In this document: positions 20,186-22,629 of the stretch, one piece after another
Layout: the number at the start of each line of letters is the position of its first letter
Position numbering within the stretch: the stretch's first letter is position 1
IMG/VR virus record: IMGVR_UViG_3300030098_001852
Span: 1 to 22,823 of that record
Length of the DNA stretch: 22,823 nt
Direction: 5' to 3' (one strand)
Source of the DNA: a virus
Made by a program: the position numbers and the translations under genes
The notes under the pieces: generated by a model
Databases searched by the model: none
Told to the model about the DNA's origin: nothing
The model's input: only the letters and a program-made list of their open reading frames with translations

Positions 20186-21358
20186 TTACCAGCTATGTGT
20201 GTTAGAGCCAGATGTAGCAGGAGCTGCACCAGCAATAAGTTCTACACAAGCAGCAGGGTTTAGGTAGTCAGCACCCATAGCCAAACGGCCAAGAATTACA
20301 TCACCTTGATAAACCACTGATACGTCGCCAGAAGTTACTTGAACCTGTGGTCCGATAGCTTCAACTACAGCTGCACCTTCCTTCTGGAATATAACTCCAC
20401 AAGAATGTGCGAATCTTTCATCAGTACCGTAGTCGTTACGTGAACCATAGTTAGTACCAGTTACAGCTTCGTCGTCGAGCATATCTTCGCCAACGAATGT
20501 ACCTAAGTTTCCAGGTGATGTTTCACCAGGATCAGCTGCACCAGCGGTGCCTCCTAACTTAGTACCATAGTTTCCGAAGAATGGTACGTTCATTGACTTG
20601 AAGATTTTGATACCTGCAATTTCAATGATTCCGTTACCAGTCTGCAAAGCAGTACCTTGTACGTCACGGTTGATTAGACCATTACCCGATACGTTCTGGA
20701 TAAGTGCATAGTACTGTCTTGGGTTAAGAACAGCTACTCTTCCAGCACCACTTACACCCTTTTCATCTAGGGCTGCAGCAGCATCATAGAAGGCATCTAC
20801 TAGCTTATCTGAGTCGTATGCGTTAGCAGCTAAGTTAGTAGTACCAACACGGATCTGAGATCCACCTGGTTCTACGAAACCTGTTGCTGAAACTGGAGAA
20901 GCTGCACGAGCACCACGAACGATAGATCTGAAGATCTTACGGTCATATGTTTGTGCTAAAGCGTAACCAATTTTTCTTGAGATTTCTCCTCTCAATTCGT
21001 AGTGAGCCAGAGTTTCATCTAATTCATAGACGAAAGCACTTGAGATTAATAGGTCATCACAAGTCACTGTTTTCTCAGCTACTGGAGGCGCATTGTCACT
21101 GTTACCCAAGATGCTCTGGCCTGGAATATGATATTCCGCTTTGGTGCGACCCGTGTAGATGAACTGCAATGAGCGTCCATTCTTAAGGGTTCTCTTGGTA
21201 ACTAGATCACGTGCAATAGCCTCATGTTGGAACCCTTTGAAGAGCTCCCCAGAGAAAATTTTAAGATAAAGATCTCTGTTATTTGACGCATTACCAGTAG
21301 CGTTAGCCCTACCTTGAAAGGTTACTGGCGCTGTACTGTGCGTACTTTGTTGTGCCAT
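20186..21358 (-). CDS. Major capsid protein, T7 gp10-like (HK97 fold)
   Basis: A 390-aa protein with the layout of T7-group major capsid proteins. Y-L-K-I-F-S-G-E-L-F-K-G-F near residues 27-39 corresponds to the T7 F-L-K-V-F-G-G-E region. It is followed by S-L-Q-F-I-Y-T-G-R-T-K-A-E-Y-H-I-P-G (beta-rich E-loop part) and L-L-I-S-S-A-F-V-Y-E-L-D-E. Next comes a long helix and R-V-A-V-L-N-P-R-Q-Y-Y-A-L-I-Q. The C-terminus has V-I-L-G-R-L-A-M-G-A-D-Y-L-N-P-A. T7 gp10A has 345 aa. It would form the icosahedral head. The ATG at 21358 has no evident Shine-Dalgarno sequence, surprising for a highly expressed gene. A terminator follows, and a tRNA gene precedes. Confidence 0.95.
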   Translation of the reverse strand: MAQQSTHSTAPVTFQGRANATGNASNNRDLYLKIFSGELFKGFQHEAIARDLVTKRTLKNGRSLQFIYTGRTKAEYHIPGQSILGNSDNAPPVAEKTVTCDDLLISSAFVYELDETLAHYELRGEISRKIGYALAQTYDRKIFRSIVRGARAASPVSATGFVEPGGSQIRVGTTNLAANAYDSDKLVDAFYDAAAALDEKGVSGAGRVAVLNPRQYYALIQNVSGNGLINRDVQGTALQTGNGIIEIAGIKIFKSMNVPFFGNYGTKLGGTAGAADPGETSPGNLGTFVGEDMLDDEAVTGTNYGSRNDYGTDERFAHSCGVIFQKEGAAVVEAIGPQVQVTSGDVSVVYQGDVILGRLAMGADYLNPAACVELIAGAAPATSGSNTHSW

Positions 21359-21476
21359 TGTTATGGATAAAGTTTATATTTACGTTTCTCAGCTGAAATT
21401 TTTTTGATCGATTTGTTGTGGTCTATCCCACCGTCTAGACGGCTAATGGGTATCCGCGTACGGGCCAAAAGCCAAA
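21359..21476 (-). promoter_or_regulatory. Structured leader between tRNA-Gly and capsid gene
   Basis: This 118-base non-coding spacer holds a perfect 12-base palindrome, CCGTCTAGACGG (21431-21442), flanked by CCCA/TGGG arms that extend it to an imperfect hairpin over 21427-21450. A direct repeat GCCAAAA occurs twice next to the tRNA 3' side. The last 60 bases before the capsid ATG are AT-rich (TAAATATAAACTTTATCC) with no ribosome-binding site. It may contain tRNA processing signals, a late promoter or a translation element for capsid. I cannot name a specific promoter sequence. Confidence 0.4.
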
Positions 21477-21547
21477 AGCGAGCTATCGGAATCGAACCGA
21501 TGAACCTAGTTTGGAAGACTAGAGTTTTACCGCTAAACTAAACTCGC
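21477..21547 (-). tRNA. tRNA-Gly (anticodon UCC)
   Basis: A complete 71-base cloverleaf can be drawn on the minus strand. The acceptor stem is GCGAGTT/AGCTCGC with one G-T pair, the D arm GTTT/AAAC, and the anticodon arm CTAGT-CTTCCAA-ACTAG giving TCC at the anticodon. The variable region is GTTC, the T arm ATCGG-TTCGATT-CCGAT, and the discriminator base T as in bacterial glycine tRNAs. CCA is not encoded. It reads GGA (and GGG by wobble) codons. It begins 8 bases after the stop of the 68-aa gene and may be excised from the late transcript. All stems pair properly, so it is likely functional. Confidence 0.96.
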
Positions 21548-21555
21548 AGTACTCA

Positions 21556-21762
21556 TTATTTATTGAGTACATATCTATTAAGTACTTCAAGCTGATCGTG
21601 ATATCTCGATATCTTATCTAGCTCTAGACCAATAGCTTCGGTTATATCAGAGTGTTCGCCAATACCAGCGGGGTTAGTTAAATAAACTTCTACATTAGCT
21701 AGATGCTTCTGTATCTCCCCGTTCGCATGTGCCTTCACTGCGTTGATTAGTTGTGTTCTCAT
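21556..21762 (-). CDS. Conserved-looking small protein upstream of capsid, 68 aa
   Basis: The 68-aa product begins M-R-T-Q-L-I-N-A-V-K-A-H-A-N-G-E-I-Q-K-H and continues N-V-E-V-Y-L-T-N-P-A-G-I-G-E-H-S-D-I. It ends with an acidic/basic helical part (L-E-L-D-K-I-S-R-Y-H-D-Q-L-E-V-L). I recall close relatives in cyanophages of several types, always as small proteins of unknown function. The helical layout suggests an oligomeric accessory factor of the virion. The start is an ATG at 21762; a longer ORF in another frame overlaps its first 68 bases. The tRNA gene follows 8 bases downstream. Confidence 0.8.
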   Translation of the reverse strand: MRTQLINAVKAHANGEIQKHLANVEVYLTNPAGIGEHSDITEAIGLELDKISRYHDQLEVLNRYVLNK

Positions 21763-21940
21763 TCTGGGTAGATCGATGGTAGTTTAAATGAGACCATTCA
21801 ACATAAATGAAAAAGGATAGCAGTAGAAATACCACTATCCATAATTCATTTAGTTTCTCACTAGCTCGTGAGAGCCTCTTCCAAAGAGTCGTAGTCGACT
21901 TCTTTTTCTTCTTTTTCTTTATGCTCTTCTGGTTTGTCAT
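21695..21940 (-). CDS. Doubtful nested ORF with one membrane helix
   Basis: An 81-codon frame overlaps the end of the 46-aa gene by 80 bases and the start of the 68-aa gene by 68 bases; only about 98 bases are its own. That unique part encodes a strong membrane helix, L-W-I-V-V-F-L-L-L-S-F-F-I-Y-V-E-W, with a basic stretch before it, which fits an N-in single-pass protein. The lysine-rich N-terminus is, however, the shifted reading of the acidic neighbour's GAA/AAA run. A shorter version starting at an internal GTG is possible. Without it the 98-base gap would hold no gene. I treat it as a candidate only. Confidence 0.35.
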   Translation of the reverse strand: MTNQKSIKKKKKKKSTTTLWKRLSRASEKLNELWIVVFLLLSFFIYVEWSHLNYHRSTQNENTTNQRSEGTCERGDTEASS

Positions 21941-22001
21941 GATGAGATTCAGGACTTAACCAAGTAACTGAAGCAGGAGAGTGGGAGCTTTGTTGAGCCA
22001 T
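21861..22001 (-). CDS. 46-aa acidic protein sharing its N-terminus with the capsid protein
   Basis: This small gene encodes M-A-Q-Q-S-S-H-S-P-A-S-V-T-W, then a run rich in E and K, ending V-D-Y-D-S-L-E-E-A-L-T-S. The first 14 residues match the capsid N-terminus (M-A-Q-Q-S-T-H-S-T-A-P-V-T-F) at 10 positions. The ATG overlaps the stop of the preceding 28-codon ORF (TGATG) and is preceded by a strong GGAGG 4 bases away, the best ribosome-binding site in this part of the window. Acidic, helical and next to capsid, it could be a scaffold-like or capsid accessory peptide, but no family is recognised. Confidence 0.72.
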   Translation of the reverse strand: MAQQSSHSPASVTWLSPESHHDKPEEHKEKEEKEVDYDSLEEALTS

Positions 22002-22554: not shown

Positions 22555-22629
22555 AATAAATCCTCGAATACCAAGACCCCGTTCCATGCCTTGGTTTCAT
22601 GCGTCCCAATGGGGGATGAACGGACGTGG
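22555..22629 (-). promoter_or_regulatory. Structured spacer after ndhI
   Basis: The 75 bases between ndhI and the 35-codon gene contain two successive hairpins on the minus strand. One has TTCAT/ATGAA arms and an inner CCC/GGG pair; the next has ACCAAG/CTTGGT arms. No T-tract follows, so they are not terminators. The GC content is clearly higher than the surroundings. The GAGGA ribosome-binding site of the next gene follows directly. It could stabilise the ndhI transcript end or regulate the downstream gene. Confidence 0.4.

Follow-up and report, generated by a model that had tools for sequence, protein, structure and literature searches.

A microprotein of T7-like cyanopodophages resembles the capsid N-arm tip and covaries with the major capsid protein

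By comparing related viral loci, we show that a conserved gene upstream of the major capsid protein (MCP) gene of T7-like cyanopodophages encodes a microprotein whose N-terminus imitates the MCP N-arm at the protein level and covaries, at the level of single residues, with that arm and with MCP residue 73. From these patterns we think it reasonably probable that the microprotein mimics the N-arm, docks in the MCP groove that receives this arm, and serves as a low-copy peptide for capping or decoration whose charged tail can be exchanged; within this reading, the predicted docking site is well supported and the capping or decoration role is probable. T7-like cyanopodophages abound in the ocean, and most descriptions of their capsids give them a shell made of one protein. 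Our search of the open-licence PMC literature found no report of the microprotein or of arm mimicry and listed no proteome of an arm-bearing phage, and the available portions of PMC13002823 and PMC9207676 contain nothing on the microprotein.

The window, which is the whole 22,823-base viral fragment analysed, reads on its minus strand as the head/tail region of a T7-like cyanopodophage. Gene order along this strand runs from a Glutamine-II riboswitch through small ORFs, an OMP-like protein and a 28-aa ORF to the 46-aa ORF that encodes the microprotein, and on through a 68-aa ORF and a tRNA-Gly to MCP and the tail genes. The riboswitch (Rfam RF01704, 57 bits; 22570–22625, minus strand) lies 5′ of the small ORFs in the cyanophage late region, and the tRNA-Gly(TCC) (21477–21547, minus strand) sits between the microprotein and MCP; none was found in the 18 related loci scanned. 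The 390-aa MCP (20186–21358, minus strand) is T7 gp10A-like (Pfam Gp10A-like, 4.8e-69; PHROG major head protein) and matches the P-SSP7 capsid 2xd8 with an E value of 2.9e-163; its closest annotated relatives are those of Prochlorococcus and Synechococcus podophages. Just 5′ of MCP, GGTGGGATAGACCACA (21417–21432, minus strand) is a conserved non-coding element, with exact copies at 199 of 406 loci when overlapping loci are counted separately, and is possibly a promoter or an RNA-processing signal.

The microprotein gene (21861–22001, minus strand, stop codon included) is an intact ORF that starts 643 nt upstream of the MCP start and encodes an acidic protein with a net charge of −8. Its codons 1–14 (21960–22001, minus strand) carry the capsid-like motif MAQQSSHSPASVTW, identical at 10 of 14 residues to the N-arm tip of MCP (MAQQSTHSTAPVTF, codons 1–14; 21317–21358, minus strand), and the variable residue x of the shared x-Q-S motif is Q3 here. 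The remainder (21861–21959, minus strand) is a charged variable tail that ends in SLEEALTS, a SLEEAL module, followed by the stop codon. Of the 9 non-Met residues in common, 6 are encoded by different codons in the two genes. A first-pass annotation of this DNA had noted the likeness, the acidic character and the conservation at the protein level, all of which were borne out, the likeness more widely than first noted. It had also credited the ORF with the best ribosome-binding site in the area: the Shine-Dalgarno stretch AGAAGGAGGAG is indeed good and MCP there has none, but this is a local feature that is rare across the family, with an SD-like 4-mer for 10 of the 140 microproteins and for 3 of the 140 partner MCPs. 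In the +1 frame, an ORF at window positions 21695–21940 (minus strand) overlaps the acidic half of the microprotein and encodes a Lys-rich stretch and one TM-like segment (NELWIVVFLLLSFF). In P-SSP10 (L081), comparison with close relatives shows the +1 ORF fused to the microprotein by an indel.

To define the family, six MCP-based scans of viral contigs and annotated phages were pooled into 403 records, of which 26 were dropped for an unreadable MCP start; merging the 377 kept by identity of the first 600 nt of MCP left 271 distinct loci. A microprotein HMM (E<0.01) found the gene upstream of MCP in 142 of the 271; the other 129 loci gave no HMM match, and in many of them the DNA available upstream of MCP is short. 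With 144 matches at this threshold on the plus strand and 0 on the minus strand, the recurrence of the likeness greatly exceeds chance. Two loci (L390 and L166) had no in-frame Met and were left out, giving 140 microprotein–MCP pairs, in which the microprotein is 32–74 aa long and starts 235–1606 nt upstream of MCP (window included). The protein of the window matches PHROG_23119, a family annotated as of unknown function (E 1e-6; residues 1–44 to profile positions 1–40 of 44), as do the 9515-10a and P-GSP1 proteins, all three over most of the profile. A tblastn search of phages with the 46-aa protein returned no match, which we attribute to its length because annotated relatives exist. For the five family members scanned, Pfam gave nothing above the cut-off, and no decoration family was matched in PHROG or Pfam.

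Selection acts on the protein: dN/dS is approximately 0.20 over 50 independent pairs, at 0.18 in the first 14 codons and 0.21 in the rest. This amino-acid constraint, like the covariation with MCP described below, speaks against the view that the ORF mainly serves as a leader, or to couple translation, either for the gene downstream or for the +1-frame membrane ORF that overlaps it. The overlap of the stop of the upstream 28-aa ORF with the microprotein start (TGATG) fits such a role, and so does the occurrence of a similar +1 ORF, TM-like segment included, at 10 of the 140 family loci, the window among them; most family members, however, lack the +1 ORF, and we give this explanation hardly any weight.

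The microprotein gene is accessory in T7-like cyanopodophages. Of the 182 loci in which 700 nt or more precede MCP, 115 have both arm and gene, 59 have the arm without the gene, 8 have neither and none has the gene without the arm, so that the gene is absent in 8 of 8 loci whose MCP lacks the arm. Since 59 of the 174 arm-bearing loci do without the gene, it is dispensable. P-SSP7, whose MCP begins MANANQ and has no arm, also has no microprotein gene. An N-terminus common to all structural proteins was considered and rejected: in six-frame scans of two genomes, the full motif occurred in MCP and the microprotein only.

The two N-termini covary. For position x, the 140 pairs (MCP residue first) comprise 57 QQ, 46 HH, 13 FM, 23 QH and 1 HQ, that is, 116 matches when F/M is counted as a match. 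Independent evolution simulated on the MCP-body tree (MCP trait; 21 and 19 parsimony changes) reached 116 matches in 0 of 2000 runs, with a mean of 47.8 and a maximum of 92. To control for a linked stretch being transferred as one piece, the comparison was repeated on a tree built from the MCP 5′ tract with codon 73 left out, and the result was again 0 of 2000. Residues 5–9, for which the N-terminal position tests used 114 of the 140 pairs, also match the MCP of their own locus more often than that of others (142 versus 105, sd 6; 0 of 2000 shuffles within x-class), a comparison that ignores phylogeny. The trees are approximate and the simulations are simple symmetric models; recombination can inflate the number of independent x switches, for which the tract tree is a partial control. 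The related-phage search and N-terminus comparison that the first-pass annotation had proposed as a check thus yielded a conserved ORF and covarying N-termini.

Could the likeness simply reflect descent? An ORF copied from the 5′ end of the MCP gene, with its resemblance kept by ancestry or by recent gene conversion, would account for a likeness that spans exactly the N-terminal ~14 residues and for gene starts so close together. The DNA tells otherwise: at 572 shared-residue positions codon identity was 239, against 239.7 expected, and therefore the likeness is kept at the protein level and there is no sign of gene conversion, which we rejected as its cause. The constraint on the first 14 codons, the family-specific residues common across loci (ASVT versus TSLT) and the approximately 20 x switches on the tree, largely matched between the partners, likewise contradict a relic, which we hold to be very improbable. 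Hitch-hiking of a linked 5′ tract is argued against by the tract tree and by an adaptor control: among 272 columns of the tail adaptor (TTA; 118 of the 140 sequences), none was linked to microprotein x at z>4, and 1 of 272 reached z 4.0 against MCP x.

When all MCP columns were scanned against microprotein x, the top column was residue 73 (z 14.1), which in the window is Lys (codon AAA, 21140–21142, minus strand) and which aligns with about residue 70 of T7 gp10. Lys is found at this position in 56 of 58 loci with microprotein Q and in 13 of 13 with microprotein M, and Thr in 54 of the 69 with microprotein H, the others being Lys (8), Gln (4), Gly (2) and Ser (1); the 8 H proteins paired with K73 count against the fit to the arm-mimic reading. 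The association holds among the 80 loci in which MCP x is Q: microprotein Q goes with K73 in 56 and with another residue in 1, microprotein H with K73 in 8 and with another residue in 15 (Fisher 1e-9; 1 of 5000 and 0 of 5000 tree simulations). Repeating the residue 73 tests on the 5′ tract tree without codon 73 still gave 0 of 2000. In the Q/H pairs, microprotein x is more closely tied to residue 73 (scored as K or non-K; MI 0.43) than to MCP x (0.27), and the microprotein motif therefore agrees better with the putative docking site than with the arm that it resembles. Columns 86, 122, 348, 336 and 55 set apart only the 13-member F/M group, which is possibly a single lineage.

The same region of MCP is linked to its own arm. 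In the 271 MCPs, the columns most strongly associated with MCP x were 86, 73, 88 and 161 (z 12.1, 12.0, 11.0 and 10.8), followed by 160 and 82. Residues 72–89 (21092–21145, minus strand), which hold several of the top covarying residues (73, 82, 86, 88 and 89), are a putative E-loop segment; residue 73 would lie within it by topology, after the N-arm helix and before the spine helix, an assignment made on topology because AF2 modelled residues 26–120 of MCP poorly (pLDDT <50 around residue 73). That MCP x and microprotein x both pick residue 73 fits the contacts described for the related P-SCSP1u capsid in the available portion of PMC10575957, where E-loops wrap adjacent N-arms and N-arms bind the E-loop and P-domain of neighbouring capsomers. 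The same source reports no decoration protein in the capsid of T7, P-SSP7 or P-SCSP1u, which counts against a decoration role; the joint lack of decoration protein, arm and gene in P-SSP7, the one of these three phages in which the gene was checked, is consistent with the arm-mimic reading.

A third factor, such as a scaffold, portal, host protease or chaperone, that reads both N-termini would also produce matching motifs, with covariation arising without contact between microprotein and MCP. Against it, the motif tracks residue 73 even where MCP's own x differs, and neither adaptor nor scaffold showed a link to the motif: none of the 272 adaptor columns reached z>4, as above (n=118), and none of 297 scaffold columns did so, in a set of only 28 of the 140 sequences and hence of low power. 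We consider this account improbable.

The scaffold bears on a further proposal, that the microprotein is a mini-scaffold in a genome segment whose usual scaffold gene is not beside that of the capsid. We rejected it: most annotated relatives carry a separate 'head assembly' gene of 251–298 aa, the 46-aa protein gave no PHROG scaffold match and is unlike a T7-type scaffold (gp9) in sequence and size, and the 28 scaffold sequences showed no covariation with the motif. The premise itself was misleading, because the scaffold of annotated relatives lies upstream of hli/psbA and the window ends before that point. The first-pass interpretation is in this way partly supported, while the notion at its centre, of a peptide imitating the capsid N-arm or pairing with it, is strongly supported by the covarying N-termini and by the tracking of residue 73.

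From indirect, evolutionary evidence we infer a direct contact, with residue 73 in an E-loop groove, and propose the following role. The microprotein would be an accessory virion or assembly component of cyanopodophages whose first ~14 residues, imitating the N-arm tip, dock on another MCP subunit at the E-loop around residue 73, in the groove that normally takes the MCP N-arm, while the remainder would be a flexible tail of high charge that can be exchanged, either acidic or of the basic Cys4 type. It may fill vacant N-arm sites, such as those near the portal vertex, which lacks a penton together with its arms, or sites left by arms that fail to reach the outside as the capsid expands. The main rival, less likely but still to be taken seriously, is an assembly regulator that would sit in the N-arm groove while MCP is free or in procapsids, hold back the locking of capsomers to one another or their expansion until the right time, and then leave, so that virions lack it. 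The docking evidence is identical for both, the accessory distribution of the gene suits a regulator, and the 23-residue N-tails of T7 lie inside the procapsid and on the outer surface after expansion (in the available text of PMC7695174), a switch of side that a competitor could tune. That the tails are modular and vary would be more readily understood if their function were display or recruitment, and apart from this nothing specific speaks against a regulator.

The N-arm mimic has partial parallels among known capsid proteins. PRD1, whose capsid lineage is unrelated, has a spike protein P5 that differs from the microprotein in being trimeric. Its N-terminal end and that of the penton protein P31 are highly similar, a likeness suggested, in the accessible part of PMC5850374, to permit a mixed pentamer. 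Accessory arms like the one proposed here are described for lambda gpD, whose N-terminus joins the E-loop and N-arm strands of MCP (PMC5701804), and for P74-26 Dec, whose Dec-arm rings the E-loop (PMC6775164), although the portions of these sources available do not describe either arm as a copy of MCP's own N-terminus. Both differ from the microprotein in being folded trimeric cement proteins. Syn5 gp53, gp54 and gp58, which we take to be its knob and horn structural proteins, differ in their length of 169–622 aa and in N-termini unlike Syn5 MCP. Knob and horn are accessory capsid proteins of a T7-like cyanophage in the available portion of PMC10575957.

More tentatively, the microprotein may represent a class of capsid self-mimics in which an N-arm copy docks in the groove and carries a swappable tail onto the capsid. 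If so, phages could add head functions, or cap the penton-less portal vertex, through a plug-in arm that coevolves with the shell residue by residue and bears acidic SLEEAL, acidic DNSDN, PSY or basic Cys4 tails; a coevolving self-mimic would then be a hidden accessory capsid component. Such a reading names a docking residue, would give an orphan family a function and offers a handle on the N-arm locking of capsomers during expansion.

The tails of the 140 family members fall into Cys4 (37), SLEEAL (35), DNSDN (20), PSY/F (18) and other (30) types, with median net charges of −3 to −8 except for Cys4 (+8). In the 37 Cys4 forms (L067, L089, L092, L115 and others), the acidic tail is replaced by a strongly conserved basic one, VFKRCGxCGDKKPxCRKQKKCLKGLL, which looks like a zinc-binding knuckle; these proteins are often N-extended, which makes the motif internal, and the one Cys4 form scanned, L089, had no PHROG_23119 match. 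SLEEAL was rejected as a tail private to the microprotein family: in two loci (L218:660 and L324:2452) it also ends a small, basic and unrelated protein (RHWK..TTGRK...EPQSLEEALTGE), which gives it the look of a portable module.
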